This document shows positions 1 to 42,616 of a DNA stretch of 64,000 nt, in pieces. The stretch is from Sycon ciliatum. Its lineage: Eukaryota > Porifera > Calcarea > Leucosolenida > Sycettidae. A program made the position numbers and the translations under genes. The first letter of the stretch is position 1. Every line of letters begins with the position of its first letter. The stretch lies in NCBI RefSeq assembly GCF_964019385.1, contig NC_088645.1, positions 44,543,529-44,607,528 on the forward strand, in the 5' to 3' direction. The notes below the pieces were generated by a model. The model was not told where the DNA came from. It made no database searches and worked only from the letters and a program-made list of their open reading frames with translations.

Positions 1-611
1 TCAATATTCACTTTCTCTCTTGGTATTTTGATCAGAAAACATATGTCACAGTGAGACTACTATGTGTTATACTCCGAGCCAAAATTTCATGGCTCTGCGA
101 TGACCAGAAGCGCCATATCAAGCAGGTGAGTTTTTGACGTGTTGCTTCGCACTGCGACTTGAGTTTTACGACTTTCGAAAAATCAACTTCTTGTCGCAGG
201 TAAACAGCGGCTCGCCTCTCGCCAATAAAGCACCGCATACCAATCAAAACTAATGGAAGCACACACAAGGCTTATTGTTACTCTATACTGGCCGTCGTGG
301 AGCGATAGCAATTACCTAATTTCAGACCCAGAGTGAATTTGACGTGCACTCTAAAACGTGTCCGGTTTGGAGCCATCTCTGATTTGAACTTTTTTGAAGC
401 GAAAAATTGGGCAACTTGGAGGCAATGGGTCAACACAAAGGAGTGGCTCAGTTCGATTGACTCTGGCCCCAGAGCAAACTTCAACACTCCAGTTTCCTTC
501 CACAAACATATTTCGAGTGAAAAATCAACGCTGATGATCGGTTTGGGTCTATACAAATTTGGCTGTCAAAACGTCCCGGTATCGAGCCGTCTCCTCTACG
601 TCATATTTGGG
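1..611. other. No gene recognised
   Basis: A plus-strand reading frame runs through the second half of this stretch into the PLE remnant that follows. Its peptide upstream of about 612 does not resemble the PLE proteins elsewhere in the window, so I treat it as flanking sequence. No repeat or RNA gene was recognised here. Confidence 0.5.
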
Positions 612-1549
612 ACAGTGCGTGCGTTCAGTGTGAAGAAGGATGTTCTACCTACCCTTAGTAAAAGTAACCTTATCTATTTCTTTCAATGCCGACAATGTGA
701 AGATCGGTATGTAGGTAGAACCCTTCAGCACCTGGGCGCGCGCATTCGTCAACATGTGCCGTTAAGTTTTGTTCCGCTTGATGCGCGTGAGTGTCGTCCT
801 CGCCGTGGTCGTCCTCCCAAATGTGCTGTCATGTCCATTGGTGGATCTTCCTCTTCCTGTGAAGATGTGACTGCATGCCCGTGCTCCTCCGCGTGTGTAG
901 GGCAGGATCCAGCTGAGAACAGCGTGAAAGCTGGTGAAAGACCGACACGTAAACCACCGAAATTGACAAAGGATCTGTCTGCGTCGGGAAGGGTTACGCG
1001 AAGCCAAGTAAAAATACGGACTGGTGAGGACACACGTACAACGACAACGGAAGTGACAACAACAGTCAATATTCGAAAACGTGGTAGACCGCGAAAACGA
1101 ACCTCAATATCGAACACCGGACAAGTTGGAGTAAGAAGATCAATAGAAATCCGCAATGGAGGAGACGTAGCTGAAAGGACACTGGGCATCGCGCACACAA
1201 CGGCTAGTGTCAGAAAACCTGGAAGGCCGCGGAAAAGCAAAGAGACGGATAGTGGTGATGCCGCGAAGAGGCGAGATGACGGGACATTGGAGGAGACAAC
1301 ACCCAACTGAGCTAAGAATCCCACTTCGTCCATCAAGCAACATCTGTCAGCCCGTACCAATTGTCGTGAGTTGTACAGTGATAATGTGTTCTCAATATTA
1401 TCACGTGGTAGATGTGCGTTGCATCTGGCTGTGTTAGAAGCTTTGTATATCCGTAAGTTAGATCCTGAACTTTGCGTACAGAAAGAAAATGTATTGTCGC
1501 TACAATTGTTTGGTGTTACTCCTCGTCGAGGTGTTAACAATGTAACTTA
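612..1549 (+). pseudogene. Penelope-like element 3' fragment: GIY-YIG nuclease with three AT-hooks
   Basis: This is the C-terminal part of a Penelope-like retroelement protein, from just before the GIY-YIG nuclease to the end; the reverse transcriptase is missing. It opens with TVRAFSVKKDVLP and the nuclease start LIYFFQCRQCEDRYVGR, with the catalytic-type arginine and histidine in ARIRQH. It then carries three AT-hook cores (RRGRPPK, KRGRPRK, KPGRPRK). The end has the conserved VLEALYIRKLDPELCVQK block, which supplies the glutamate of the fold. A single in-frame TGA at 1308-1310 separates the AT-hook region from that block; the frame otherwise stays open to the TAA at 1547-1549. The copy is 5' truncated near 612 and inactive. 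Its family differs from the copy at 42.6-45.2 kb. The PLE assignment rests on family motifs and on alignment by eye with that copy. Confidence 0.85.
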
Positions 1550-1828
1550 ATTTGTTCACTATGTTCTTGTCACTATTATTATTTCGTGCTGAACTTGATA
1601 ATTTTCCACCTTGTCACGAGTGTTGTTATCTCATATCTTTACGCTATATAAGTTTTAGTGTTTCCAACTTGAGCCATTCCCTGTATAATCCTTGATGAGA
1701 AGGGACCGAAAACGTTCGGATACTTTGACAAGTGCCTTATTTTGACTGGATGTGTGTTTGCGTGGATACTTACGACCCAACACGTACCTTCGTTATTAAA
1801 GTATCATCCGCCTCCGACTTCTTGTGAA
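1550..1828 (+). mobile_element. PLE 3' UTR ending at an ATT array
   Basis: Non-coding tail of the preceding PLE fragment. It ends in CTTGTGAA and runs directly into (ATT)n at 1828-1855. The other PLE 3' ends at 16331 and 17421 also end in a short AAATT before ATT arrays. Confidence 0.6.
1688..1721 (+). ncRNA. Degenerate hammerhead-like motif in PLE 3' UTR
   Basis: Stem I ATCC/GGAT encloses a core reading TTGATGA (first base T instead of the invariant C), then GAA and the short stem III AACGTT followed by C. The layout matches the intact hammerheads in this window, but the C-to-T change at the catalytic position and a poor stem II suggest loss of activity. Confidence 0.45.
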
Positions 1829-1855
1829 ATTATTATTATTATTATTATTATTATT

Positions 1856-2622
1856 GCCTGTGTGGATTCACAGGAAGTGTGAGTTACGAAGTCTGAAGAA
1901 AATGTTGAACGGCCTCTGCTGGGATGACGACTACACCATAGCTCAGTGGTTAGAGCATCGCTGGCTACAAGCGAGGGTCCCTGGTTCGAGTCCTGGTGGT
2001 GACAGTCAATTTTTTCTTCAGACCTTTCCCGTTTGTCTCTTTCCCTCAAACCATTTAGTATTTTATGACTTGGGGCTCCCGGCGTGCTAGTTTGTACGTG
2101 AAGTGTGTGGGTTACAGTGAGGGCTGCGTCCCACCCGCCTGTGTGGATTCACAGGAAGTGTGAGTTACGAAGTCTGAAGAAAATGTTGAACGGCCTCTGC
2201 TGGGATGACGACTACACCATAGCTCAGTGGTTAGAGCATCGCTGGCTACAAGCGAGGGTCCCTGGTTCGAGTCCTGGTGGTGACAGTCAATTTTTTCTTC
2301 AGACTTTTCCCGTTTGTCTCTTTCCCTCAAACCATTTAGTATTTTATGACTTGGGGCTCCCGGCGTGCTAGTTTGTACGTGAAGTGTGTGGGTTACAGTG
2401 AGGGCTGCGTCCCACCCGCCTGTGTGGATTCACAGGAAGTGTGAGTTACCAAGTCTGAAGAAAATGTTGAACGGCCTCTGCTGGGATGACGAATACACCA
2501 TAGCTCAGTGGTTAGAGCATCGCTGGCTACAAGCGAGGGTCCCTGGTTCGAGTCCTGGTGGTGACAGTCAATTTTTTCTTCAGACTTTTCCCGTTTGTCT
2601 CTTTCCCTCAAACCATTTAGTA
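1856..2622 (+). repeat. 281-bp tandem array with tRNA-like heads (three units)
   Basis: Three near-identical units repeat every 281 bp. Each has a tRNA-like segment (1932-2003, 2213-2284, 2494-2565) with an A box TAGCTCAGTGG and B box GGTTCGAGTCC. The D stem GCTC/GAGC and anticodon stem TCGCT/AGCGA are perfect, but only five of seven acceptor pairs form. The first unit is truncated at its left edge against an ATT array, and the last ends at CTCAAACCATTTA against another. This is best read as a tRNA-derived SINE-like repeat in tandem, not as tRNA genes. Confidence 0.8.
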
Positions 2623-2633
2623 TTATTATTATG

Positions 2634-5600
2634 GAGTTGGCTTTATTTCACTCACGTTGTCATGAGATGAGGTAAGAACCCCATCACCGGGCCAAAAGAG
2701 ACCAAGGGTAATGAGAGAAAAAAAATAGATAAATGGCCAACGCAATGAAGACCGAAGCAAAAAAGGATTGTAAAAACCAAAGCAAAAATATTGAAAGCCG
2801 ACGCAGAAACTGAGAGACGGACAGAAATAAGCAGTACGATGGAGGATGCCAGGACATATTCGAATACAAAAAGATGGAGGAGGACAGGACATATTCGAAT
2901 ACAAAAAGAGTAATTACAAAAATGGACTACCAGTACAGGAATAGACCTGTAGAAATAGAGGAAGAGATGAATGCCGGACATACTCAAATGGCAAGAGAAA
3001 AATCAGGCTGTGAGAACCGTCATACTGCACATTCATGGATGTCAAAGCAAATGCGGTATTGGAGGTTTATACAGACTAGCTCTACCCGTAACATGAGGAG
3101 CCTAATGCCGAATGCCAAGAACCGACTTGATGATGTTCAGCGTGCCCAGGATAGCACATTGCTGAGCCCTTTCAATGCGCAGAGTGCCTGCCAATGCCAA
3201 CACAAAGTGTGAGAGGGGCACACCAGTCAGTCCACCAAGCGCCCCAACAACCAGGGGCACAACGCGGACATCATCCACATGCCAGATGCGCCGCAGCTCT
3301 TGGCAAAGGGGAGCGTACTTTGTTATTTTTTCGGCGATTTTTGTGGGCACATTCTGGTCCAGTGGAACACTGACATCCATCAGCAGCACCTGTGTGCTGG
3401 ACCGCAACACCAGGTCTGGACGGTTGTGGCGCACTTGCGTATCCGTTGGGATATTGAACTCCCACAGGAGCTTCATGTCAGGATTTTCCGTGACAGGCAC
3501 AAGATGATGCTTCAGCGGGTTGCTTCCCGGCTGACCCAGACCATGCCGCTTGCATAGTGCCCAATGCACCAACTTGACGAGCGTGTCATGCCGTTCGATA
3601 TACAGTGTTTTGGCTAGGGCTGGGCAACAGGCCACAATGTGATCAACTGTTTCTCCGCGAGTGCCGCAAACTCGACAAATGTCCACAACGTCTCCCCGTC
3701 CAATGACCGTGACCTGATAGTGCCTGGTCGCAATGGCCTGATCCTGTACAGCCAGCAAGAGTCCCTCTGTCGCAGGCCTGATCGTTGGCGATTTCAGCCA
3801 GCGAAAACTCAAGCCCAGGTCCAAGCCAGCATCAGAAGCTCGTCTCCAGAACTGGCCATGGAGAGGCTTACCTTGGATAACGGCCAGGCACCGGAGAGCA
3901 ACGGCCTTCTTGACAATGACTTTTGTGGCAGTCTCCAAGTCGGGTAGGTCAAGTTCACCCAGAAGTCTGGAGGCTTGACGTGTAACTGATTTTGACGGTG
4001 CCACATCATTGTCGTGATGGCGCTTAACAGCAGCCAACAGTGGCACGTTTGGGTGGGCTTGTAGGTACCGCGCCACCCGGACACGGGTTCTATCCAGGAG
4101 ATCCCGGAATGATAGAATTCCTCGACCACCCATGTCACGAGGCAGGTGGACCCTGGCGGCAGAGTCCTTGGGGTGGCGGGCGTGTGCTTTAAACAGTGCT
4201 TGGCGGGTCTGTCGGTCGAGTTCTTCTATCTCTGCCTTTGTCCACTCAACGATGCACAGAGAGTAGAGGATGACTGGAATGGCAAAGGTGTTGATGGCTT
4301 TGACCAAGTTCCTGGCGTTCAATTGAGACGAGCATATCAATTGAAGGCGGCGGCCGAACTCAGCCTTTGCTGTGGTCTTCAATTCGGTGGCGTGAAAATG
4401 TGCTGATTCCGGGACACCAAGGTACCTGTAGGACTCCTCCGCCTGCAGCTTAGCAATGGCGTGACCCTGGAGTGTCTGGAGAGCAGACTGCTGATCGCTC
4501 TGGGCTCTTCCCCGTTTCATGGTGAGCCAGCTAGACTTTGATGGGTTGAATCGCATACCAATGCAGTCGCCCATTGACTCCACAACATTGGTCATGGAGA
4601 GCAGATTATTGTCGTTTCGGGCGAAGAGCTTCATGTCGTCCATGTACCACAGGTGCGATACAGGGCACACCTGGGCCGGTGGGCCACAGCGGTAGCCAAG
4701 ACCCGTCCTGGTCAACTCGCCACTGATCGGATTTAGAGACAGGCAAAATAGCAGTGGAGAAAGGGAATCGCCCTGGAAAATGCCACGGTGGATAGATATT
4801 GGGCGACTGAATGCACGGGGTGTTTGACCAGGCAGTACCATTTGCGTTCTCCAATGATCCATCATGCTTGAGATGCATGAGACAAGATTGTCTGCAAAGC
4901 GGTAGATCAACAGGCATCTCCGGATCCACTGGTGAGACAGGCTATCGAAGGCTTTGCGGAAGTCCACCCAGCACGTCGAAAGATTCCGACTACGGGATGC
5001 TGCATCCTCTAGAACCATCTTGTCGATCATTAGTTGGTCAAGGCATCCACCACGCCCTGGAGTACAGCCAACTTGCTCATCTGCAAAGATATCCTCTGAA
5101 GATAAATGGCGCCACATGGCAGCAGCGAGTAAGGATGTGAATATCTTGCTAATCGTTGGCAGGCATGTTATTGGGCGATAATTCTCGGGCCTAGAAAGGT
5201 CTCCTTTCTTAGGCAGTAGAGTGGTGATACCAAACGAGAACCAGGCCGGCGACTCTGTCTCTGCATCCAGGATTGATTGAAAGGAGACCACAATACGCTC
5301 GTGGATAGACGAAAACTTCTTCCACCAAAATGCATGGATCTTGTCCCGTCCTGGGGCTTTCCAGTTGTTTGATTTCTTCAAGATGTCCCTGAGGTCCTCC
5401 AGTTGAAGAATGACACGGTCTTGTTGTTGAATCTCCTCACAGTCCCTCTCCAAATTATCAAGCCAAGCACCGCCACGCAGCTCCACGGGTTCTTCCAGTA
5501 TAGATGACCACACTGAGAACTCAGTAACAGCCTCACCCGATGGATGCGCAGCAGCTTGGTCGACAGGTGGCTGCCCAGGCATTTCCGTAGACTTGGTCAT

Positions 5601-5975
5601 ATTGCGGTAGAACTGACGCTCATTCGTGACGAAAACACGATTCTCCGACCTGCGTGTTGCCTCTAGCTTATAGCGCCGGATCCGTGCGGCTGTTGCTTCT
5701 AGCTGCATTTTCGTATGCTCCAGTAGCTGGCGGGCCTGATCCAAAGTCTGGACTTTATATTGCCGGTGGATCCTGTGCTGCTTGATGTTGGTGTCAGAGA
5801 GGGATCCATCACGCAGGAAGCTGGTCAGCCGGGAGACGTCAGCCCTCAGTGCACAAACACGTTTTTCAAGGCGTTGTCGCCAGGCAGGCAAGGAGCGTTC
5901 TCCTCTAGCTGTGTCAGGGGTACCATCTGTATTGATATCCAGCAGTGAGAGTACAAGCTTGGCCCCAGCATAGAC

Positions 5976-5978
<3 letters not shown>
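2634..5978 (-). mobile_element. R4/Dong-like non-LTR retrotransposon, bounded by ATT arrays
   Basis: The element reads right to left from an ATT array at 5977-6045 to a short ATT run at 2623-2633 in the tail of the 281-bp repeat. It comprises one long ORF and about 470 bp of 3' UTR (2634-3101). The UTR contains a near-perfect direct duplication around 2845-2905. Both ends lying in ATT repeats fits the known TAA-repeat insertion of Bombyx Dong. A second 3' fragment of the family lies at 12577-13129. Confidence 0.75.
3102..5978 (-). CDS. Reverse transcriptase with restriction-like endonuclease (R4/Dong-like)
   Basis: About 958 codons from the ATG at 5978, which lies directly against the ATT array; translation upstream would read only poly-isoleucine, so that part is array sequence. 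The N-terminus is helical and Lys/Arg-rich with no zinc finger visible, suggesting 5' truncation. Reverse transcriptase blocks follow: APGRDKI, LPKKGD..ENYRPITCLP, the VDFRKAFDS motif, GIFQGDSLSPLLFCLSLNP, and the catalytic YMDD near residue 445. Near residue 765 comes a CCHC-type cluster (CRVC..HIVAC). It is followed by the restriction-like nuclease signature RPD (about 853) and MDVSVP (about 867), with about 14 residues between the two acids. RT plus a C-terminal CCHC and PD-D nuclease defines the R2/R4/NeSL group; FQGDSLSP with YMDD favours R4/Dong. No internal stop or frameshift is seen. Confidence 0.85.

Positions 5979-6045
<67 letters not shown>
5977..6045. repeat. (ATT)n array
   Basis: Uninterrupted ATT repeat at the 5' boundary of the R4/Dong-like element. 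A 66-bp unassigned segment (6046-6111) separates it from the next array. Confidence 0.99.
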
Positions 6046-6108
6046 TGCAAGAAAAGGGTTTGCTCCCCACACCGGAGCTCGCGCTATTCCGCCGACTTTA
6101 CTTGACAC

Positions 6109-6219
<111 letters not shown>

Positions 6220-6878
6220 GTTCTCCTCTGTCGGGGGAGCTGGCGGTGAGGCCCGGAATATGTTGAAACGTCTCGCCATTCGCCTGGCAGCGGCAACCGG
6301 AGACTCGTACAGCATCCTCATGGGACGGATCCGCTGTAAGCTTGGCTTCACTCTAGTCCGTGACTCCGTCATGATGTTGCGTGGTAGTCGGAGGAAGGTG
6401 AATTTCAGCCATCACCCCAGCGATGTCCTGCAGCATGAGTCGCTCATGCCAGTTTGACTCGGCTCGATTTGTCTTTTGTGTCTGTGCATGATGATGTCAC
6501 AGGTTTGTTTGCCAGTTTTGGTTCTGTTGCCGTTTATCCTCCGTCTTTGCTTTTTGTTTTGCTGTTTCCTTTCTCTTCTTCCTCTTTGCTCACGTTGATG
6601 CCATTTTGTTGTGAGTCCGCATGCTTTGACTCGAACTCGCAAGGTTGATTATTATCTCTTGCACCTTTTACTGGTTTAGGACTTGTGCCCAGTCCTGAAG
6701 TTATTGCTCATTGTTTGTGTTTTTGTTTTTAATTGTTTTGCATTTACATTTACATGTATTTAGAACACATGTGCAAGGTTGATTGCTATCCCTTGCACGT
6801 ATCAGGGCCTGTGCCCTTTCCTGTTTTATTTCATCTCACATAATAGTACATAATAAACCAGTTTATTATTTAATAATA
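6220..6878 (+). pseudogene. 5'-truncated retroelement C-terminus, copy 1
   Basis: An open frame from the array edge to 6457 reads SSVGGAGGEARN, then a helical block ending in SVMMLRGSR, followed by a 3' UTR of about 400 bp. The domain matches 10273-10674 almost exactly and a diverged copy at 33887-34316. Its hallmarks (a DxRVFxP strand, then SxxGG, then LRCxLxFxLxR) recur at the C-termini of invertebrate retroelement proteins. I cannot place the family, and a nuclease role is only a guess from the DxRV strand. This copy is cut at the ATT array and lacks the DxRV part. Confidence 0.55.
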
Positions 6879-6925
6879 ATAATAATAATAATAAAAAAAA
6901 TAAAAAAAAATTATTATTATTATTA

Positions 6926-7036
6926 AAATATTGACTGGTTTGAGGGAAAGAGACAAACGGGAAAAGTCTGAAGAAAAAATTGACTGTCACCACCAGGACT
7001 CGAACCAGGGACCCTCGCTTGTAGCCAGCGATGCTC

Positions 7037-7037
<1 letters not shown>
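6926..7037 (-). repeat. Single truncated 281-bp-family unit
   Basis: The 3' part of the tRNA-headed repeat in reverse orientation, from ACTGGTTTGAGGG to inside the tRNA-like region, where it is cut at GATGCTCTT. It lies between a mixed AAT/ATT run (6879-6925) and the array at 7038. Confidence 0.85.

Positions 7038-7107
<70 letters not shown>
7038..7107. repeat. (ATT)n array
   Basis: Uninterrupted array at the left end of the retrozyme palindrome; the junction reads ATT directly into TGAAACTCGG. Confidence 0.99.
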
Positions 7108-7645
7108 TGAAACTCGGATGTTGAGCCATAAATAAATGTAAAATAGAAAAGGACATATGGATACGAGTTTAGAGTAACTCTCCATCACTGTAACATGATA
7201 CTATATACAGTCAGAAAGTGCAATAACTAGGCACAAAACTGACAGAGTACTGAGACATTCGACGTCCTGACACCTAACTTTAACACATCTCCGTAGCGCT
7301 AACCGACAGCCTTCCAACTTGGAAGGTTCAAGGTTATGGAAAAGACCAAAGAGGGGAAGGCAAGCGCAACGAAAACGAGCAAAAGCTACAGTCCCAACGG
7401 AACAAAGAATGTCGATTGTTACTGGACGATGACGAGACCAGTACGATATTTGACAAAGCGGTCTAACTACAATTCGAAGCAGCAAAGCAGCACACCACCC
7501 AACTTGGGTGGGTCATAAATATCAAAGATAAGTAAAGAAAGGGAAGCTTTGCGAAAACGAATTGTACAAGCCGAAAGCCAAACTCCTACAGTACTCCTCA
7601 TGCATGACATTGTGATGGACTAGTTGACTACAAAACAAGTTGTTT

Positions 7646-7694
7646 CACACGACGTACGTTTCGCCGTATGGTTCGTGACGGCTCATCAGGTGTG
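7646..7694 (-). ncRNA. Type I hammerhead ribozyme (retrozyme monomer, minus arm)
   Basis: On the minus strand: stem I CACAC/GTGTG, core CTGATGA, stem II GCCGT/ACGGC with a 10-nt loop, GAA, a short stem III from ACGTACGT, and cleavage triplet GTC. All invariant core bases are present. Confidence 0.9.
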
Positions 7695-8033
7695 CAATTT
7701 GAAACTCGGATGTTGAGCCATAAATAAATGTAAAATAGAAAAGGACATATGGATACGAGTTTAGAGTAACTCTCCATCACTGTAACATGATACTATATAC
7801 AGTCAGAAAGTGCAATAACTAGGCACAAAACTGACAGAGTACTGAGACATTCGACGTCCTGACACCTAACTTTAACACATCTCCGTAGCGCTAACCGACA
7901 GCCTTCCAACTTGGAAGGTTCAAGGTTATGGAAAAGACCAAAGAGGGGAAGGCAAGCGCAACGAAAACGAGCAAAAGCTACAGTCCCAACGGAACAAAGA
8001 ATGTCTTTCAAAAAAAGAATGAGTTTCAAATTG

Positions 8034-8082
8034 CACACCTGATGAGCCGTCACGAACCATACGGCGAAACGTACGTCGTGTG
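8034..8082 (+). ncRNA. Type I hammerhead ribozyme (retrozyme monomer 1)
   Basis: Same 49-nt motif as 7646-7694 in the opposite orientation. Stem I is 8034-8038, CTGATGA 8039-8045, and predicted cleavage follows the C at 8077. Confidence 0.9.
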
Positions 8083-8625
8083 AAACAACTTGTTTTGTAG
8101 TCAACTAGTCCATCACAATGTCATGCATGAGGAGTACTGTAGGAGTTTGGCTTTCGGCTTGTACAATTCGTTTTCGCAAAGCTTCCCTTTCTTTACTTAT
8201 CTTTGATATTTATGACCCACCCAAGTTGGGTGGTGTGCTGCTTTGCTGCTTCGAATTGTAGTTAGACCGCTTTGTCAAATATCGTACTGGTCTCGTCATC
8301 GTCCAGTAACAATCGACATTCTTTGTTCCGTTGGGACTGTAGCTTTTGCTCGTTTTCGTTGCGCTTGCCTTCCCCTCTTTGGTCTTTTCCATAACCTTGA
8401 ACCTTCCAAGTTGGAAGGCTGTCGGTTAGCGCTACGGAGATGTGTTAAAGTTAGGTGTCAGGACGTCGAATGTCTCAGTACTCTGTCAGTTTTGTGCCTA
8501 GTTATTGCACTTTCTGACTGTATATAGTATCATGTTACATTGATGGAGAGTTACTCTAAACTCGTATACATATGTCCTTTTCTATTTTACATTTATTTAT
8601 GGCTCAACATCCGAGTTTCAAATTG

Positions 8626-8674
8626 CACACCTGATGAGCCGTCACGAACCATACGGCGAAACGTACGTCGTGTG
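8626..8674 (+). ncRNA. Type I hammerhead ribozyme (retrozyme monomer 2)
   Basis: Core CTGATGA at 8631-8637, stem II 8638-8642/8653-8657, GAA 8658-8660, stem III 8661-8668, predicted cleavage after 8669, stem I 8626-8630/8670-8674. Confidence 0.92.
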
Positions 8675-9217
8675 AAACAACTTGTTTTGTAGTCAACTAG
8701 TCCATCACAATGTCATGCATGAGGAGTACTGTAGGAGTTTGGCTTTCGGCTTGTACAATTCGTTTTCGCAAAGCTTCCCTTTCTTTACTTATCTTTGATA
8801 TTTATGACCCACCCAAGTTGGGTGGTGTGCTGCTTTGCTGCTTCGAATTGTAGTTAGACCGCTTTGTCAAATATCGTACTGGTCTCGTCATCGTCCAGTA
8901 ACAATCGACATTCTTTGTTCCGTTGGGACTGTAGCTTTTGCTCGTTTTCGTTGCGCTTGCCTTCCCCTCTTTGGTCTTTTCCATAACCTTGAACCTTCCA
9001 AGTTGGAAGGCTGTCGGTTAGCGCTACGGAGATGTGTTAAAGTTAGGTGTCAGGACGTCGAATGTCTCAGTACTCTGTCAGTTTTGTGCCTAGTTATTGC
9101 ACTTTCTGACTGTATATAGTATCATGTTACAGTGATGGAGAGTTACTCTAAACTCGTATCCATATGTCCTTTTCTATTTTACATTTATTTATGGCTCAAC
9201 ATCCGAGTTTCAAATTG

Positions 9218-9266
9218 CACACCTGATGAGCCGTCACGAACCATACGGCGAAACGTACGTCGTGTG
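9218..9266 (+). ncRNA. Type I hammerhead ribozyme (retrozyme monomer 3)
   Basis: Identical motif exactly 592 bp after the previous one. The monomer that follows is cut short by the ATT array at 9775. Confidence 0.9.
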
Positions 9267-9773
9267 AAACAACTTGTTTTGTAGTCAACTAGTCCATCAC
9301 AATGTCATGCATGAGGAGTACTGTAGGAGTTTGGCTTTCGGCTTGTACAATTCGTTTTCGCAAAGCTTCCCTTTCTTTACTTATCTTTGATATTTATGAC
9401 CCACCCAAGTTGGGTGGTGTGCTGCTTTGCTGCTTCGAATTGTAGTTAGACCGCTTTGTCAAATATCGTACTGGTCTCGTCATCGTCCAGTAACAATCGA
9501 CATTCTTTGTTCCGTTGGGACTGTAGCTTTTGCTCGTTTTCGTTGCGCTTGCCTTCCCCTCTTTGGTCTTTTCCATAACCTTGAACCTTCCAAGTTGGAA
9601 GGCTGTCGGTTAGCGCTACGGAGATGTGTTAAAGTTAGGTGTCAGGACGTCGAATGTCTCAGTACTCTGTCAGTTTTGTGCCTAGTTATTGCACTTTCTG
9701 ACTGTATATAGTATCATGTTACAGTGATGGAGAGTTACTCTAAACTCGTATCCATATGTCCTTTTCTATTTTA

Positions 9774-9774
<1 letters not shown>

Positions 9775-9810
<36 letters not shown>

Positions 9811-9811
9811 T
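9775..9811. repeat. (ATT)n array
   Basis: Joins the right end of the retrozyme array (TTTTACATT) to a reverse-oriented 281-bp-family repeat. Confidence 0.98.
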
Positions 9812-10216
9812 TAAGTGGTTTGAGGGAAAGAGACAAACGGGAAAAGTCTGAAGAAAAAATTGACTGTCACCACCAGGACTCGAACCAGGGACCCTCGCTT
9901 GTAGCCAGCGATGCTCTAACCACTGAGCTATGGTGTAGTCGTCATCCCAGCAGAGGCCGTTCAACATTTTCTTCAGACTTCGTAACTCACACTTCCTGTG
10001 AATCCACACAGGCGGGTGGGACGCAGCCCTCACTGTAACCCACACACTTCGCGTACAAACTAGCACGCGGGGAGCCCCAAGTCATAAAATATTAAGTGGT
10101 TTGAGGGAAAGAGACAAACGGGAAAAGTCTGAAGAAAAAATTGACTGTCACCACCAGGACTCGAACCAGGGACCCTCGCTTGTAGCCAGCGATGCTCTAA
10201 CCACTGAGCTATGGTG
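9812..10216 (-). repeat. 281-bp tandem tRNA-like repeat, one and a half units, reversed
   Basis: One complete unit plus a second truncated just past the tRNA-like region at GAGCTATGGTGT, between ATT arrays 9775-9811 and 10217-10243. Confidence 0.85.
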
Positions 10217-10243
10217 TATTATTATTATTATTATTATTATTAT

Positions 10244-10993
10244 ATAGTATATAGGGGAGGGGCCTCTGGTCCATGCAAGAGGATGCATTTTTTGACATAA
10301 GGGTTTTCTATCCCTGCGCGTCCTCTTACATGACTAAGTCCCTCTCTGCGACCTACAGATGGCATGAGGAGCAGAAGAAAGCGGCTTATGGTGAGCGGAT
10401 CCGGCGGGTGGAGAGGGGCAGCTTCTCTCCATTGGTGTTCTCCTCTGTCGGGGGAGCTGGCGGTGAGGCCCGGAATATGTTGAAACGTCTCGCCATTCGC
10501 CTGGCAGCGGCAACCGGAGACTCGTACAGCATCCTCATGGGACGGATCCGCTGTGAGCTTGGCTTCACTCTAGTCCGTGACTCCGTCATGATGTTGCGTG
10601 GTAGTCGGAGGAAGGTGAATTTCAGCCATCACCCCAGCGATGTCCTGCAGCATGAGTCGCTCATGCCAGTTTGACTCGGCTCGATTTGTCTTTTGTGTCT
10701 GTGCATGATGATGTCACAGGTTTGTTTGCCAGTTTTGGTTCTGTTGCCGTTTATCCTCCGTCTTTGCTTTTTGTTTTGCTGTTTCCTTTCTCTTCTTCCT
10801 CTTTGCTCACGTTGATGCCATTTTGTTGTGAGTCCGCATGCTTTGACTCGAACTCGCAAGGTTGATTATTATCTCTTGCACCTTTTACTGGTTTAGGACT
10901 TGTGCCCAGTCCTGAAGTTATTGCTCATTGTTTGTGTTTTTGTTTTTAATTGTTTTGCATTTACATTTACATGTATTTAGAACACATGTGCAA

Positions 10994-11024
<31 letters not shown>
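10244..11024 (+). pseudogene. 5'-truncated retroelement C-terminus, copy 2, with poly(A)
   Basis: The frame 10273-10674 reads FFDIRVFYP, a basic helical stretch, FSSVGGAGGEARN, and SVMMLRGSR, and ends at the same stop context as the 6220 copy. The 3' UTR is nearly identical to that copy, then becomes A(27) at 10998-11024, followed at once by (ATT)n at 11025-11044. Its left edge is an ATT array. It extends further upstream than copy 1, so the two are independent truncations. Function unknown. Confidence 0.6.
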
Positions 11025-11025
<1 letters not shown>

Positions 11026-11044
11026 TATTATTATTATTATTATT

Positions 11045-11482
11045 GTAAAATAGAAAAGGACATATGGATACGAGTTTAGAGTAACTCTCCATCACTGTAA
11101 CATGATACTATATACAGTCAGAAAGTGCAATAACTAGGCACAAAACTGACAGAGTACTGAGACATTCGACGTCCTGACACCTAACTTTAACACATCTCCG
11201 TAGCGCTAACCGACAGCCTTCCAACTTGCCTTCCCCTCTTTGGTCTTTTCCATAACCTTGAACCTTCCAAGTTGGAAGGCTGTCGGTTAGCGCTACGGAG
11301 ATGTGTTAAAGTTAGGTGTCAGGACGTCGAATGTCTCAGTACTCTGTCAGTTTTGTGCCTAGTTATTGCACTTTCTGACTGTATATAGTATCATGTTACA
11401 GTGATGGAGAGTTACTCTAAACTCGTATCCATATGTCCTTTTCTATTTTACATTTATTTATGGCTCAACATCCGAGTTTCAA
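11045..11482. mobile_element. Short retrozyme palindrome without ribozyme
   Basis: A minus-oriented piece of the 592-bp monomer (11045-11228) meets a plus-oriented piece (11229-11482) head to head inside the CCAAGTTGGAAGG region. Both outer ends touch ATT arrays, at TTTTACA on the left and TTTCAAATT on the right. Both pieces stop short of the hammerhead. Confidence 0.85.

Positions 11483-11576
<94 letters not shown>
11483..11576. repeat. (ATT)n array
   Basis: Separates the short retrozyme palindrome from the next 281-bp array. Confidence 0.99.
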
Positions 11577-11579
<3 letters not shown>

Positions 11580-12513
11580 GGTTTGAGGGAAAGAGACAAA
11601 CGGGAAAAGTCTGAAGAAAAAATTGACTGTCACCACCAGGACTCGAACCAGGGACCCTCGCTTGTAGCCAGCGATGCTCTAACCACTGAGCTATGGTGTA
11701 GTCGTCATCCCAGCAGAGGCCGTTCAACATTTCCTTCAGACTTCGTAACTCACACTTCCTGTGAATCCACACAGGCGGGTGGAACGCAGCCCTCACTGTA
11801 ACCCACACACTTCACGTACAAACTAGCACGCGGGGAGCCCCAAGTCATAAAATATTAACTGGTTTGAGGGAAAGAGACAAACGGGAAAAGTCTGAAGAAA
11901 AAATTGACTGTCACCACCAGGACTCGAACCAGGGACCCTCGCTTGTAGCCAGCGATGCTCTAACCACTGAGCTATGGTGTAGTCGTCATCCCAGCAGAGG
12001 CCGTTCAACATTTCCTTCAGACTTCGTAACTCACACTTCCTGTGAATCCACACAGGCGGGTGGAACGCAGCCCTCACTGTAACCCACACACTTCACGTAC
12101 AAACTAGCACGCGGGGAGCCCCAAGTCATAAAATATTAACTGGTTTGAGGGAAAGAGACAAACGGGAAAAGTCTGAAGAAAAAATTGACTGTCACCACCA
12201 GGACTCGAACCAGTTATTATTATTATTATTATTATTAACTGGTTTGAGGGAAAGAGACAAACGGGAAAAGTCTGAAGAAAAAATTGACTGTCACCACCAG
12301 GACTCGAACCAGGGACCCTCGCTTGTAGCCAGCGATGCTCTAACCACTGAGCTATGGTGTAGTCGTCATCCCAGCAGAGACCGTTCAACGTTTTCTTCAG
12401 ACTTCGTAACTCACACTTCCTGTGAATCCACACAGGCGGGTGGGACGCAGCCCTCACTGTAACCCACACACTTCACGTACAAACTAGCACGCGAGGAGCC
12501 CCAAGTCATAAAA
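11577..12513 (-). repeat. 281-bp tandem tRNA-like array, reversed, interrupted by ATT
   Basis: Two complete units (11577-11857 and 11858-12138), a 75-bp partial (12139-12213), an ATT run (12214-12237), then another full unit to 12513. The partial breaks off at CTCGAACCAG, inside the B box region, and the next unit restarts at the standard 3' end. Two independent insertions appear to abut. Confidence 0.85.

Positions 12514-12576
<63 letters not shown>
12514..12576. repeat. (ATT)n array
   Basis: Left border of the second R4/Dong-like fragment. Confidence 0.99.
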
Positions 12577-13129
12577 GACGACTTTATTCACTCCCAAAGC
12601 AGAAAAAGAAAGCTTGAAAGGAGGCATGAAGCACAGCACCGGGATCCATATGACCCAAGGGTGAAGCACCAATCAATGAAGATAAAAGAAAATCCTGAAC
12701 CAAATTTTGATAAACTTCATGAGAGAAAAATTCAAGTATACCAACTTCGATACTCACATAAAATCACAGTCATGTATAACAGAACTACTCAAGTAGTAAA
12801 AAAGAAGCATGCTGCACATGGGACACTCCAAGCAAGACAAACTCAGACGAGATAAAACGGCATATGCAGAGAAAGACAATACATGACTGGGGGCATATGG
12901 CAGAAATTCACGCCTCTCGGCTCGTCACACAGCACATGATGCACCACAATCATAAAACACACAGACTGAGACACATCGAGACATTACGGGCAGGCTAACA
13001 TAAGGTCAACCGACCGTTCCGACCATGCCACTCTCCCATCCATGACCAGTCACCGACCGCACAATTCTCAGGGTGCCCAGAATAGCACATTGCTGCACAT
13101 TGCTGCAGCCGCTGGATCACGGATCACGG
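12577..13129 (-). mobile_element. R4/Dong-like element, 5'-truncated copy (3' UTR and last codons)
   Basis: The left end, ATT then GACGACTTTATTCACTC, parallels the 3' end of the element at 2634. At the right end, minus-strand codons read QCAILGTLRIVRS, matching QCAILGTLNIIKS at the C-terminus of the 3102-5978 ORF. Only about 550 bp remain. Both sides are ATT arrays, so this copy independently supports insertion into TAA/ATT repeats. Confidence 0.75.

Positions 13130-13180
<51 letters not shown>
13130..13180. repeat. (ATT)n array
   Basis: Right border of the Dong-like fragment and left border of the largest 281-bp array. Confidence 0.99.
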
Positions 13181-15228
13181 GTGGGTCCCTGGTTCGAGTC
13201 CTGGTGGTGACAGTCAATTTTTTCTTCAGACTTTTCCCGTTTGTCTCTTTCCCTCAAACCAGTTAATATTTTATGACTTGGGGCTCCCCGCGTGCTAGTT
13301 TGTACGTGAAGTGTGTGGGTTACAGTGAGGGCTGCGTCCCACCCGCCTGTGTGGATTCACAGGAAGTGTGAGTTACGAAGTCTGAAGAGAATGTTGAACG
13401 GTCTCTGCTGGGATGACGACTACACCATAGCTCAGTGGTTAGAGCATCGCTGGCTACAAGCGAGGGTCCCTGGTTCGAGTCCTGGTGGTGACAGTCAATT
13501 TTTTCTTCAGACTTTTCCCGTTTGTCTCTTTCCCTCAAACCAGTTAATATTTTATGACTTGGGGCTCCCCGCGTGCTAGTTTGTACGTGAAGTGTGTGGG
13601 TTACAGTGAGGGCTGCGTCCCACCCGCCTGTGTGGATTCACAGGAAGTGTGAGTTACGAAGTCTGAAGAGAATGTTGAACGGTCTCTGCTGGGATGACGA
13701 CTACACCATAGCTCAGTGGTTAGAGCATCGCTGGCTACAAGCGAGGGTCCCTGGTTCGAGTCCTGGTGGTGACAGTCAATTTTTTCTTCAGACTTTTCCC
13801 GTTTGTCTCTTTCCCTCAAACCAGTTAATATTTTATGACTTGGGGCTCCCCGCGTGCTAGTTTGTACGTGAAGTGTGTGGGTTACAGTGAGGGCTGCGTC
13901 CCACCCGCCTGTGTGGATTCACAGGAAGTGTGAGTTACGAAGTCTGAAGAGAATGTTGAACGGTCTCTGCTGGGATGACGACTACACCATAGCTCAGTGG
14001 TTAGAGCATCGCTGGCTACAAGCGAGGGTCCCTGGTTCGAGTCCTGGTGGTGACAGTCAATTTTTTCTTCAGACTTTTCCCGTTTGTCTCTTTCCCTCAA
14101 ACCAGTTAATATTTTATGACTTGGGGCTCCCCGCGTGCTAGTTTGTACGTGAAGTGTGTGGGTTACAGTGAGGGCTGCGTCCCACCCGCCTGTGTGGATT
14201 CACAGGAAGTGTGAGTTACGAAGTCTGAAGAGAATGTTGAACGGTCTCTGCTGGGATGACGACTACACCATAGCTCAGTGGTTAGAGCATCGCTGGCTAC
14301 AAGCGAGGGTCCCTGGTTCGAGTCCTGGTGGTGACAGTCAATTTTTTCTTCAGACTTTTCCCGTTTGTCTCTTTCCCTCAAACCAGTTAATATTTTATGA
14401 CTTGGGGCTCCCCGCGTGCTAGTTTGTACGTGAAGTGTGTGGGTTACAGTGAGGGCTGCGTCCCACCCGCCTGTGTGGATTCACAGGAAGTGTGAGTTAC
14501 GAAGTCTGAAGAGAATGTTGAACGGTCTCTGCTGGGATGACGACTACACCATAGCTCAGTGGTTAGAGCATCGCTGGCTACAAGCGAGGGTCCCTGGTTC
14601 GAGTCCTGGTGGTGACAGTCAATTTTTTCTTCAGACTTTTCCCGTTTGTCTCTTTCCCTCAAACCAGTTAATATTTTATGACTTGGGGCTCCCCGCGTGC
14701 TAGTTTGTACGTGAAGTGTGTGGGTTACAGTGAGGGCTGCGTCCCACCCGCCTGTGTGGATTCACAGGAAGTGTGAGTTACGAAGTCTGAAGAGAATGTT
14801 GAACGGTCTCTGCTGGGATGACGACTACACCATAGCTCAGTGGTTAGAGCATCGCTGGCTACAAGCGAGGGTCCCTGGTTCGAGTCCTGGTGGTGACAGT
14901 CAATTTTTTCTTCAGACTTTTCCCGTTTGTCTCTTTCCCTCAAACCAGTTAATATTTTATGACTTGGGGCTCCCCGCGTGCTAGTTTGTACGTGAAGTGT
15001 GTGGGTTACAGTGAGGGCTGCGTCCCACCCGCCTGTGTGGATTCACAGGAAGTGTGAGTTACGAAGTCTGAAGAGAATGTTGAACGGTCTCTGCTGGGAT
15101 GACGACTACACCATAGCTCAGTGGTTAGAGCATCGCTGGCTACAAGCGAGGGTCCCTGGTTCGAGTCCTGGTGGTGACAGTCAATTTTTTCTTCAGACTT
15201 TTCCCGTTTGTCTCTTTCCCTCAAACCA

Positions 15229-15229
<1 letters not shown>
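13181..15229 (+). repeat. 281-bp tandem tRNA-like array, seven full units plus a partial
   Basis: Seven essentially identical 281-bp units follow a partial that begins inside the tRNA-like region at GGGTCCCTGG. Each unit keeps the A box TAGCTCAGTGG and B box GGTTCGAGTCC. The anticodon loop reads GGCTACA; its second base is G where real tRNAs have U33, so these are not functional tRNAs. Units are joined by TTAATATTTTATGACTTGG, and an ATT tail occurs only after the last unit. That suggests either one long tandem transcript was inserted, or the array expanded after a single insertion. Confidence 0.85.

Positions 15230-15273
<44 letters not shown>
15230..15273. repeat. (ATT)n array
   Basis: Tail of the 281-bp array and left edge of a PLE 3' end. 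Confidence 0.98.
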
Positions 15274-15274
<1 letters not shown>

Positions 15275-15602
15275 TGTGTGTCCAGAAGGACAGCATTATT
15301 CGTTTGAAATTGTTTTAGTAGCAACTTGTTCTGTCGGTTTGGCTCTGGTTGGCCATGGTGTCATATCTTGTGTCACAGTATACTAGTAGTCCTTACAAGT
15401 TCGTTAAGTGCTTTCGCAGTTTTTCCTGTTATTACCTTAGTGCTAGGATTATCATTTTCATAGGTGTTGTTTCTTCTCACTCCATTTCTCTTTATTAGTA
15501 TCTTTCTGGATTGTTTTTCATTAGTACAACGTAGCTTCCTGAGGAGTGTTGTGCGAAAACTAGTTCGAAGTACAATTTTTGTTCATCATTTCTTCCACAT
15601 CA

Positions 15603-15603
<1 letters not shown>
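15274..15603 (+). mobile_element. PLE 3' end (last codons and UTR), truncated at ATT array
   Basis: The first 15 codons after the array read LCVQKDSIIRLKLF and stop (15316-15318), the same C-terminal signature as the other PLE copies. About 285 bp of 3' UTR with an intact hammerhead follow, up to the ATT array at 15604. The family is distinct from the other PLE copies in its UTR. Confidence 0.75.
15535..15570 (+). ncRNA. Hammerhead ribozyme in PLE 3' UTR
   Basis: Stem I CTTC/GAAG (extendable by GTA/TAC past a bulged G), core CTGAGGA fitting CUGANGA, a weak stem II GTG/TGC-type closed by G-C, GAA, palindromic stem III AACTAGTT, and cleavage base C at 15566. Confidence 0.75.
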
Positions 15604-15639
<36 letters not shown>

Positions 15640-15725
15640 AAGCGAGGGTCCCTGGTTCGAGTCCTGGTGGTGACAGTCAATTTTTTCTTCAGACTTTTCC
15701 CGTTTGTCTCTTTCCCTCAAACCAG

Positions 15726-15727
<2 letters not shown>
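15640..15727 (+). repeat. Truncated 281-bp-family unit
   Basis: The 3' end of the tRNA-headed unit, starting inside the anticodon arm at GCGAGGGTCC and ending at CTCAAACCAGT, between ATT arrays 15604-15639 and 15728-15784. Confidence 0.85.

Positions 15728-15784
<57 letters not shown>
15728..15784. repeat. (ATT)n array
   Basis: Left border of the PLE palindrome at 15785. Confidence 0.99.
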
Positions 15785-15843
15785 GCAATGAAAAATATCA
15801 ATTGTGCACTCATAATCATGTATAAACAATTAAAATGAAACAA

Positions 15844-15879
15844 TTCCAGAACGTTTTCGTGTGACCATCATCAGTGGAA
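15844..15879 (-). ncRNA. Hammerhead motif, weak stem II (left arm)
   Basis: Stem I TTCCA/TGGAA, core CTGATGA, GAA, stem III AACGTT and cleavage base C are all present. The nine bases of stem II (TGGTCACAC) cannot form the usual first G-C pair without bulging two bases. Confidence 0.6.
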
Positions 15880-16200
15880 CATCGTCACATAGTAAGAATC
15901 ACTAAAACAACCAGTTATATAGCTAGAGTAACATGAAAAGAAGCGTGAGAATGCAGCACAGCTAGCGGTTATGCATAACGCACAATGCATAACGCATAAT
16001 GCATACGCACTCACCAGTTTTTGTTCACACGCACTCACAGCTGCCACATTCATCTACTGCTACCATTCTCAGATACACTGCAAAGGTTCACACTACACGC
16101 GTTATGCATAACCGCTAGCTGTGCTGCATTCTCACGCTTCTTTTCATGTTACTCTAGCTATATAACTGGTTGTTTTAGTGATTCTTACTATGTGACGATG

Positions 16201-16236
16201 TTCCACTGATGATGGTCACACGAAAACGTTCTGGAA
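16201..16236 (+). ncRNA. Hammerhead motif, weak stem II (right arm)
   Basis: Mirror copy of 15844-15879 with the same 36 bases; core CTGATGA at 16206-16212 and predicted cleavage after 16231. Confidence 0.6.
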
Positions 16237-16331
16237 TTGTTTCATTTTAATTGTTTATACATGATTATGAGTGCACAATTGATATTTTTCATTGCTATTT
16301 TACGACTGTTGTCTCCTCGTCGGTTATTTAA

Positions 16332-16407
<76 letters not shown>
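16332..16407. repeat. (ATT)n array
   Basis: Shared border between the two neighbouring PLE palindromes. Confidence 0.99.
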
Positions 16408-16408
<1 letters not shown>

Positions 16409-17421
16409 AAAAAAAGTATTGTCTACGCATGCATCTACGTAAGAGTCACCACCAGCCAATTAGGACATGTGTCAAAGTATTGAACGTTTTCGTTCCCTTC
16501 TTGTCAAAATACTACAGGGAATGATGGAAATAAGCTAAAAGACTACAACTATAAGGAAAGAAGTTCAGAAATATATCACTCCAATTATGTGTAGAAGTGA
16601 CACGAAAAAAATAGATGTGAAGAATCAAGAAAACCGCATGCAAATCCAATAAGTGACAAAAACGTAGTGACAAGAAAAAGAGAGAAACATCAAGAGATCT
16701 ATTTCGCACCTTCACGACGAACAGTGCCAAACAACTGTAAAGACAACACATTCTCCTTCTGAACACAAAGCTCAGGGTCTAACTTACGTATGTACAAAGC
16801 TTCCAACACGGCAAGATGTAACAAAGACCTACCACGCGACAAAACAGAGAATACATCATCGGAGTACCACTCACGACAACTAGCACTGCCCGACAGGTGA
16901 CACTTGATTGCCGAGGTACCGTTTCCCGATGATTTCCCGATGATGTATTCTCTGTTTTGTCGCGTGGTAGGTCTTTGTTACATCTTGCCGTGTTGGAAGC
17001 TTTGTACATACGTAAGTTAGACCCTGAGCTTTGTGTTCAGAAGGAGAATGTGTTGTCTTTACAGTTGTTTGGCACTGTTCGTCGTGAAGGTGCGAAATAG
17101 ATCTCTTGATGTTTCTCTCTTTTTCTTGTCACTACGTTTTTGTCACTTATTGGATTTGCATGCGGTTTTCTTGATTCTTCACATCTATTTTTTTCGTGTC
17201 ACTTCTACACATAATTGGAGTGATATATTTCTGAACTTCTTTCCTTATAGTTGTAGTCTTTTAGCTTATTTCCATCATTCCCTGTAGTATTTTGACAAGA
17301 AGGGAACGAAAACGTTCAATACTTTGACACATGTCCTAATTGGCTGGTGGTGACTCTTACGTAGATGCATGCGTAGACAATACTTTTTTTGTAATATTTT
17401 CTGCCTCCGTCCTACTTTCAA
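16408..17421. mobile_element. Head-to-head palindrome of a second PLE 3' end
   Basis: A minus-sense arm (16408 to about 16928) meets a plus-sense arm (about 16929-17421). Each encodes the C-terminal end of the PLE nuclease: DDVFSVLSRGR, then VLEALYIRKLDPELCVQK and a stop (plus arm 17097-17099). The minus arm reaches further upstream into the protein. The sequence resembles the 612-1549 copy, so they are the same or sister families. ATT arrays flank both sides. Confidence 0.8.
17286..17323 (+). ncRNA. Decayed hammerhead-like motif
   Basis: Stem I AGTATT/AATACT, GAA, stem III AACGTT and cleavage base C are kept, but the core reads TTGACAA instead of CTGANGA. A mirror copy lies in the minus arm around 16470-16510. 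Probably inactive. Confidence 0.35.
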
Positions 17422-17473
<52 letters not shown>

Positions 17474-17474
17474 G
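17422..17474. repeat. (ATT)n array
   Basis: Separates the PLE palindrome from the 3' end of the PLE split by a LINE. Confidence 0.99.
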
Positions 17475-18110
17475 CAACAAAAAAACAAAAAAGTGAGAAC
17501 GAATGATAATAATAACAATAATAAACAAGAAGGTGACAAAACACATTTAGGCACAAGTGGCAACAACGTTGCCACACTACACAACAGAACATTATTTGAA
17601 CAATTTTAGGGTAATAACACTATCTTTCTGGACACACAAATTCGGCTTATGAATGCGCTGACAAACAGCTTCCAAAACTTGTAACTGCAAAAGATAACCA
17701 TGACGAGCACGGCACAAAACAGAAAAACAGGAATCAGAATAAGTACGACAACAGTCAGTACTAGAAACCAAATGATTGTATACTGAAGACTTGTTATTAC
17801 GAGACGGACGCACACAATCTCGACTCACGCGCACACCCTCACACTCCCTCTCACCCTCACTCAGCTCACCTTCTCCCTCACTGTCCGAATCAGAACCTGC
17901 TCCGTCATCCACCGCGGTTTGACTCTCCTCCTCACTTGCATCGTCCTGCGTCTCACCTTCACCACCCACGCCAACCCTGAATGCCGTTGCCTTCACGTCA
18001 GTCGTCGTCCTTTCCGATTGTTTCCTTTGTATTTTTACCGTGAATTCATAGGTCCGGTTGTAATCTGCTGTAGATCTCCGTGGTCTGTCATTTGCTGCTT
18101 TGTTTTGTGG
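17475..18110 (-). pseudogene. PLE copy 3, 3' part (C-terminus and UTR)
   Basis: The minus-strand frame from the LINE junction at 18110 to the TAA at 17592-17594 encodes an acidic, serine-rich stretch followed by the PLE C-terminal block VLEAVCQRIHKPNLCVQK and LKLFK. The other half of the same gene lies beyond the LINE at 22861-23363. The 3' UTR (17475-17591) contains a small hairpin TGGCAAC/GTTGCCA and ends at the ATT array. I found no hammerhead in it. Confidence 0.75.
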
Positions 18111-18253
18111 ATTATTATTATTATTATTATTATTATTATGAAATGACCCAAAGGCAATGTGCCTATCGAGGGGTTCATTTGATTGAAAGAACAGTAGATG
18201 TAGATGTATGTACAAAGAGAAGTAGGGATTGATGAGGAGAGAAATGGGGAAAA

Positions 18254-40517: not shown

Positions 40518-40943
40518 CCATTCTCTTCCGCCACAGGCAGTGCCTCCCGATGCCATGTCACCCAACTTTTTTTCTTTTTTTTTAAAGAGAACACAAACCT
40601 ACAAATCATGTTGAAAGACAAAAAGTACATTGGACTGGGTAGGCGCTATCCACAATGCCAGTTAATTGCTGTGTTGATGAAATACATGGACTCTGCTGAC
40701 CATGGGTCTCGGCGTCACATTGCCATGTATGCATCAAAATTAATCATAAGTTTATTATGAGCCAACATAAGAAAGTGACTAAAGACAACAAAATGAAATA
40801 AAAAAATAAGACAAAACAAACAAGAAGGGAATAATAAAGAGTCGGCGTGGAGAAAGCAATTTTATTAGTGCAATTAGGAGTATAATCGATGCAGACATGG
40901 CCAGACAACAACGAGTTCATGGAATTTTTAAGGATTTTTATGT

Positions 40944-42585: not shown

Positions 42586-42616
42586 GGGAACAGGCGGCGC
42601 TGTCGCCTAACAGAAT

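Follow-up and report, generated by a model that had tools for sequence, protein, structure and literature searches.

Palindromic insertions of a 592-bp hammerhead retrozyme in Sycon ciliatum carry end signatures of the PLE type

Introduction

Metazoan retrozymes have been described by Cervera and de la Pena (2020) as repeats of 150-450 bp with circular RNAs of 170-400 nt, and circles above 1000 nt are allowed for in the discussion of the same paper (PMC7229834). Which enzyme spreads these animal elements, that of LINEs or that of Penelope-like elements (PLEs), is stated as open in the excerpted text of both PMC7229834 (2020) and PMC11722881 (2024). PLEs themselves leave recognizable scars at their insertion sites. 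In an anole PLE, reverse transcription (RT) starts at two adjacent sites, to which the genomic tail of 30-40 bp corresponds. The enzyme, for which a dimer is predicted, cleaves 5'-ATT-3' in either strand, and no start-site difference between the strands was observed, according to the excerpted text (Frangieh 2024, PMC11167929). In the Adineta PLE, as described in passages of Arkhipova 2013 (PMC3846280), a 31-bp tail is optional on one inverted pLTR, duplications of 8-10 bp accompany some copies, and the inverted repeats are attributed to self-priming.

In this regard, we analyzed a 592-bp repeat element in the genome of the calcareous sponge Sycon ciliatum. Its insertion scars point to PLEs for one retrozyme family, and the genome contains a second retrozyme family with a different mode of integration. 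Among the CC-licensed papers listed, we found no earlier report of PLE-type scars at retrozymes.

Results

A 592-bp unit with one type I hammerhead

The window is the whole stretch of DNA that was analyzed, 64,000 nt of contig NC_088645.1 (assembly GCF_964019385.1, positions 44,543,529 to 44,607,528 of the forward strand). It contains an array for which an exact 592-bp period had been claimed, and this period was confirmed, with the second full plus-strand copy differing from the first by two substitutions (9132 and 9160) and no indels. The unit was numbered from position 8670 of the window, i.e. directly after the predicted hammerhead cleavage between 8669 and 8670. The expected single type I hammerhead per unit was also recovered by the Rfam model Hammerhead_1 (RF00163), which matched at 8033-8083, 8625-8675 and 9217-9267 on the plus strand and at 7645-7695 on the minus strand, each with 26.8 bits and an E value of 0.0016 in a search of 4.1 kb. 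This score is below the RF00163 gathering score of 34, and at the gathering threshold no match was found in the window. The anatomy given in the original prediction stood in every part, comprising a stem II of 5 bp, a loop II of 10 nt, GAA, a palindromic ACGUACGU stem III and GUC, and the exact core and three stems of a type I hammerhead are thus present. A descriptor scan of the window for the exact core returned the same four hammerheads together with two minimal motifs (15539 and 28377). Applied to 20 null sequences generated from the window with a first-order Markov model, the descriptor gave no match.

The unit has a GC content of 42.6%, within the range of metazoan retrozymes (below about 45%), and it appears non-coding, the longest ATG frames over three units being 49 aa on the plus strand and 60 aa on the minus strand. 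It carries no ORF with the RT and GIY-YIG parts of a PLE; without a long ORF, the 592-bp element is therefore not itself a PLE. The remark that the unit would be unusually large also held, as 592 bp lies outside the 150-450 bp given in the excerpted text of PMC7229834.

Across the copies of the element, 145 hammerheads were found, 126 of them identical over 50 nt and 19 with one change. Counted per site at the insertion level, variation was five-fold lower in the hammerhead than in the rest of the unit (3/1859 versus 165/20129 cells), but counted by position the difference was not significant (2/51 versus 50/499, p 0.21). One scan of viral contigs for the exact 39-nt hammerhead found no copy.

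Palindromic insertions dispersed in the genome

The genomic form had been proposed to be a palindrome, and the array at 7105-9777 indeed has this structure. It consists of an antisense arm at 7105-8005 (minus strand, 1.52 units), a filler of 15 bp at 8006-8020, which marks the central junction of the arms, and a sense arm at 8021-9777 (plus strand, 2.97 units). A (TTA)n target tract adjoins it on the left (7037-7105) and an (ATT)n tract on the right (9775-9810). The window holds a second, smaller palindrome of the same element at 11044-11485, with an antisense arm at 11044-11228 (minus strand) and a sense arm at 11225-11485 (plus strand).

Copies were also sought genome-wide, and at least 212 matches were obtained. 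Together with 44 dispersed palindromic insertions on 12 contigs, they exclude a simple satellite confined to this locus. Our sample comprised the window and 36 genomic regions, i.e. the clusters among the roughly 150 matches that were listed out of 212, with flanks of 1.5 kb. It yielded 44 head-to-head palindromic insertions and five single-orientation pieces (44/49 palindromic). The element occurs as dispersed tandem units, from dimers to multimers, as is typical of metazoan retrozymes. L030 is a local duplicate of L029 and was excluded from the counts; in L012, a sixth single segment belongs to a palindrome that a later insertion has divided in two; and the left end of the L022 insertion lies beyond the fetched region. 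Older, diverged relatives, 76-95% identical to the 592-bp element, were seen in L031 (8198-8349), L062 (3-86), L044 (493-1054) and L023 (415-710), and their presence suggests that the family is probably long-lived.

ATT-rich targets and target duplications

Tracts of (ATT)n with at least 4 units border 29 of the 44 palindromes on both sides and 6 on one side. Tracts of at least 5 units number 19 in positions 1-18200 of the window, 3 in positions 18201-64000, and none in a comparison set of 33.5 kb (L050-L060). Pure (ATT)n targets conceal their own duplications. Fifteen palindromes do not have (ATT)n on both sides, and 12 of these were examined for target duplications, namely all except L022 and the second insertion of L029, which are cut by the fetched edge, and the first insertion of L029, which has ATT/AAT repeat flanks. 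A duplication of 12-13 bp was found in nine of the 12 and none in three, overlap with the element end being counted. Mismatched flank pairs mostly have 0-7 bp in common, but up to 8-14 bp in AT repeats, where three of the nine duplications (L020, L024 and L031) sit and where mismatched flanks can reach a similar length. Since AT repeats inflate such matches, the clearest duplications are the other six, in L012, L016, L019, L023, L039 and L040.

At 12-13 bp, the duplications exceed those of plant retrozymes (4 bp), in keeping with a metazoan retrozyme, and an ATT-rich target with a staggered cut is what PLE-type integration involves, with PLE duplications being of similar length. Fold-back artefacts of the assembly are an unlikely source of the palindromes, because the flanks differ and carry direct duplications.

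Outer ends at two sites about 31 nt apart

Read in the sense of the element, the outer ends of the palindromes are 3' ends, and most of them fall at site A (unit 546/547) or at site B (unit 514-516), 31-32 nt apart. In an internal plus-strand unit of the array, site B, which reads ..TATTTTACatt or, as a variant, ..CTCTTCCACatt, corresponds to 8591-8593, and site A, ..GAGTTTCAAAtt, to 8623-8624, directly 5' of hammerhead stem I. Judging from the outer ends, both would be RT start sites, and the stretch between them (8594-8622, plus strand) would correspond to the tail. Each window insertion uses both sites: the array ends at A (unit 546) in its antisense arm and at B (unit 516) in its sense arm, and the second insertion ends at B in its antisense arm and at A in its sense arm.

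An automatic rule applied to the 44 palindromes assigned A+B to 33, A/A to none and B/B to one, and left an unclassed end in ten. When the ends were permuted, A+B pairs averaged 17.0 and reached at most 28 in 100,000 permutations, compared with the 33 observed. The ten unclassed cases include L022 and the second insertion of L029, both cut by the fetched edge, L012, which is split by a nested insertion, and the first of L024, which is B by eye. An inspection by eye, in which the other part of L012 was used, L030 stood in for the missing end of L029 and L022 was left out, found A+B in 36 of the 43 palindromes with both ends visible. The seven others are L010, L015b, L016, L031, L036, L040 and L044a, and three of them use a site near unit 494-499. 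Apart from these seven of 43, the insertions have the inverted arms and the 30-40 nt tail on one end that characterize PLE-type integration. The palindrome is the key feature of this element, since the PLE signature is found at its two ends.

In (ATT)n targets, neither A nor B showed a clear preference for one strand; with ATT on the top strand, the left end was A in 11 and B in 7 cases, and with AAT in 5 and 4, respectively. Arm length showed no dependence on the start site. Both sites offer AUU-like bases to an (ATT)n or (AAT)n primer, and primer pairing may contribute to site choice. As A and B are also used in less regular targets (L019, L023 and L039), it would not be the whole cause.

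The tail also figures in the predicted structure of the RNA. The circular unit folds with -175.3 kcal/mol (z -5.55 against 50 shuffles), and in the predicted minimum-free-energy circle the hammerhead core is masked by the tail, in which GGCTCA is predicted to pair with TGAGCC of the hammerhead. Over unit positions 517-560 (window 8594-8637) of this predicted circle, the tail ATGGCTCA pairs with the hammerhead TGAGCCGT. For the isolated hammerhead, the minimum-free-energy structure given by ViennaRNA is not the hammerhead fold. According to this model, binding of a PLE protein at the tail could switch the masked ribozyme.

Two arms, probably from one template

For the comparison of arms, unit positions 506-548 were excluded because the ends lie there. 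In 31 of the 33 insertions that could be compared, the two arms showed no difference at any position that both contain. The mismatches were confined to L039 (8/549 positions) and L036 (1/90), and the mean difference was 0.0008 within insertions, arm against arm, and 0.0134 between insertions. Short overlaps are identical even in many unrelated arms, so the long overlaps are what count, and 19 of the 20 pairs sharing at least 460 positions showed no difference. Among the 36 insertions with a near-complete consensus, 23 haplotypes were distinguished, of which the two largest comprise 7 and 5 insertions, so that a pair drawn at random would be expected to match in about 8% of cases; the 24 insertions with at least 3 copies at every position contain 18 haplotypes. 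Identical arms in differing insertions suggest that a single template, in the simplest case a single circle, was used for each insertion. The hammerhead cleavage junction is crossed by 55 of 88 arms, which, taken together with the identical arms, suggests that a single sequence, uninterrupted at the cleavage site, was the source for both target strands. None of the 88 arms has its inner end within 5 nt of the cleavage site, where 1.6 were expected, so this is not below chance.

Complete monomers were compared in the same manner. In the L022 insertion, the 21 monomers of this kind in the two arms do not differ by a single letter (12.4 kb). Of the 72 complete monomers in 21 other insertions, 59 match the commonest one of their own insertion, which indicates that later mutation is common in some insertions (5/9 in L031). 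Among 36 insertions with at least 3 copies, 40 sites vary within an insertion, and at 39 of them the variant occurs in a single copy.

Instead of one circle, an older array might have supplied a linear multimeric transcript as template, or two RNAs might have been used. A linear multimer would likewise carry RT through the cleavage junction, and two transcripts of one homogeneous locus would look alike, which haplotypes common to 7/36 and 5/36 insertions would allow. However, private variants of the source monomers should then recur in both arms, contrary to what the within-insertion variants show; the identical monomers of L022 would presuppose a source just as free of changes, and an RNA of this kind should be cut by the hammerhead. 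We consider a linear or double template fairly unlikely, and one circle is the simplest reading of these sequences. The same variants speak to a simple satellite, in which unequal crossing-over or DNA circles produce the arrays and gene conversion keeps the copies alike. The arrays are tandem and homogeneous, as a satellite would be, but the insertions are dispersed, their ends are fixed and they come with target duplications of 12-13 bp, and conversion would spread variants to several copies, which was seen at one site in 40. A satellite origin is thus hardly credible.

The smallest arm measures 43 bp and the largest at least 9.3 kb. Within a palindrome, the lengths of the two arms are uncorrelated (rho -0.06, n 34), and the arms are equal within 80 nt in five of the 44 palindromes, one of these being cut by the fetched edge. 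At 17 of the 44 palindrome centres, the inner ends lie at most 47 nt apart (modulo the unit) against about 7 expected, which is commoner than chance and perhaps reflects common stalling sites. Closely spaced inner ends, like the palindromes themselves, would also result if the antisense cDNA snapped back and copied itself, as proposed for the Adineta PLE in the excerpted text of PMC3846280. Such self-priming predicts equal arms and the same outer end on both sides, yet the arms are uncorrelated in length and the outer ends differ, A versus B. The unequal arms and unequal ends therefore argue against self-priming of the 592-bp element, and we regard it as very improbable here.

PLEs of the same genome

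The window also contains PLE copies with comparable ends. A 3'-end palindrome of PLE-C (15785-16331) and one of PLE-B (16407-17421) both lie between (ATT)n tracts and have a tail on the right end only, of about 28-36 nt by eye. A longer copy, the window PLE (40838-45564, plus strand), has an inverted 3' duplication with a tail on the left end only, its left part being interrupted by another insertion, and it is bordered by a 13-bp target duplication, AAGGGAATAATAA, at 40825-40837 and 45565-45577. Its open frame (42611-45247, plus strand; 878 aa from stop to stop) matches RVT_1, and the C-terminal part is GIY-YIG-like by eye, though not called by Pfam. At 15539, 28377 and 45450, the window has minimal hammerheads of the PLE type, in which stem-loop II is 9 nt long; the last one lies inside the window PLE and has a stem II mismatch by eye.

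In the PLE-B family, all 12 palindromes with both outer ends readable in the matches listed pair an A site (query 522) with a B site (495-499), and four of them (L046, L047, L049 and L062) were sequence-checked. Among the other PLE-B copies listed, one further palindrome (C10:27313168) is represented on one side by an inner fragment alone; the rest show one end only. In L062, arms of 3.1 kb are 99.87% alike and come with a 12-bp duplication. The window-PLE family was found at 45 places in the genome with a query lacking the tail, so that A/B pairing is not readable there.

Between the retrozyme and the PLE-B copy itself, only chance-level matches of 17-21 nt were found. A sole longer match, of 84 nt, was rejected as a sign of kinship, since it lies outside the PLE and is an older retrozyme relative. 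The end motif TTTCAAatt is common to the retrozyme and PLE-B, but it is short. As far as can be read from sequence, the retrozyme ends reproduce the facts of the anole PLE, i.e. two starts, a tail and ATT cutting. The retrozyme reading of the original prediction and its link to PLEs are supported at the DNA level.

A second retrozyme family and neighbouring elements

A second retrozyme family of the same genome, unrelated to the first, has a 226-bp unit with a type I hammerhead of up to 34.9 bits and was found as 14 pieces in 12 loci (L050-L061), with tandem copies in some loci. None of the 14 pieces has an opposite arm within the 1.5 kb searched on each side. The 3' end lies at unit 11-15 in 12 of the 14 pieces and the 5' ends are variable; apparent duplications of 7-16 bp were found in nine of the 13 pieces tested and none in four. 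Compared with the 592-bp family, it has one orientation, one main 3' end and mostly other targets, and its insertions look like LINE-type target priming. Since this family is not palindromic, the palindromic form is not general to hammerhead repeats or to this assembly.

The LINE-like appearance of the 226-bp family brings in a LINE-type enzyme with frequent twin priming as a possible source of the 592-bp palindromes, the left arm then being an L1-like inversion. In L1 twin priming, both target strands prime on one RNA, which leads to an inversion; it is a minority outcome, and the second priming site is scattered. The topology of our palindromes equals that of L1 twin priming, and the window has LINE-type RTs, including one at 3102-6083 flanked by (ATT)n. 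However, 44 of 49 insertions of the 592-bp element are palindromic, with the second site mostly fixed 31 nt from the first. Moreover, the A/B site pair equals the PLE tail described in passages of PMC11167929 and PMC3846280, and PLE-B of the same genome has it. A LINE-type enzyme is therefore quite unlikely for the 592-bp element, and a PLE enzyme is preferred.

Several neighbouring elements share the (ATT)n surroundings. The frame at 3102-6083 (minus strand) is a non-LTR-type RT ORF (RVT_1, 1.8e-24) with (ATT)n on both sides and, by eye, a CCHC motif and an RPD-like C-terminus; it may resemble R4/Dong elements, which target TAA repeats. Units of 281 bp, tandem or partial, lie at 1856-2629, 6926-7036, 9811-10216, 11576-12213, 12238-12513, 13183-15242 and 15640-15727 of the window. 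Most of these pieces have an intact tRNA-like cloverleaf with anticodon CTA (RF00005, 37.9 bits), and in the window they sit between (ATT)n tracts in one orientation each, with a near-constant 3' end, CAAACCAGTTA, and a variable 5' end. The descriptor scan found no hammerhead in the 281-bp units, and by these sequence features the unit is a tandem SINE-like element. Two more inverted-repeat elements, at 24848-25322 (83% arms) and 47397-48226 (75% arms), have no (ATT)n flanks.

Discussion

The 592-bp element can be understood as a non-autonomous retrotransposon of the retrozyme kind, for which the following cycle is proposed. Its arrays would be transcribed, the hammerhead would release unit-length RNA, and a host ligase would close the circle; from the anatomy of the insertions, we infer that a 592-nt circular RNA is made. 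The reverse transcriptase/endonuclease of a PLE would then take this circle as template, as the scars suggest. The endonuclease would cut both strands of an ATT-rich target with a stagger of 12-13 nt, seen as target duplications, and each target 3' end would prime RT on the same circle, with one start at A and one at B, which lies about 31 nt further upstream; these starts are seen as the outer ends. Synthesis would cover anything from part of one turn to over 15 turns of the circle, as reflected in the arm sizes. Finally, the two antisense cDNAs would be joined, often at short microhomology, to give the head-to-head palindrome whose junctions are seen.

We consider it probable that the retrozyme is mobilized by PLE machinery with both target strands primed on one circular RNA, trans-mobilization being suggested by the scars that the two kinds of element share. 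We also lean, with clearly less confidence, towards a broader proposal, in which the PLE tail would be the footprint of a two-start, one-template complex. In such a complex, an RT dimer would sit on a single circle, its protomers would start at A and B on opposite strands, and both would go round; retrozymes of this type would parasitize the complex, and others in the same genome would use LINEs. The insertions provide about 40 natural records of PLE-type start-site use, mostly one each per insertion and from one template. Two questions, namely what mobilizes retrozymes and what purpose the PLE tail serves, thereby become one defined in vitro test.

Among known systems, L1 twin priming is occasional and uses a scattered internal site, whereas the palindrome of the 592-bp element is nearly obligatory and its second site is mostly fixed. 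With the metazoan retrozymes described in the excerpted text of PMC7229834, the element shares one type I hammerhead per unit, tandem arrangement, a non-coding sequence, a GC content below 45% and co-resident PLEs; it differs in its larger unit and in palindromic insertions with two mostly fixed 3' ends. The hammerhead core is masked by the tail in the predicted 592-nt circle, whereas it is free in most of the metazoan circles reported there. With the PLEs that carry a tail (passages of PMC11167929 and PMC3846280), it has in common two adjacent RT starts about 31 nt apart, a one-ended tail on an inverted arm, an ATT-rich target, a target duplication and a hammerhead nearby. Unlike these PLEs, the retrozyme has no ORF, a fuller rather than a minimal hammerhead, and multimeric arms of the rolling-circle kind. 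RT would start just 5' of the hammerhead in the retrozyme and about 85 nt 3' of it in PLEs (by eye; passages of PMC11167929), so that the order of start and ribozyme, and with it the layout of the RNA, differs between the two.
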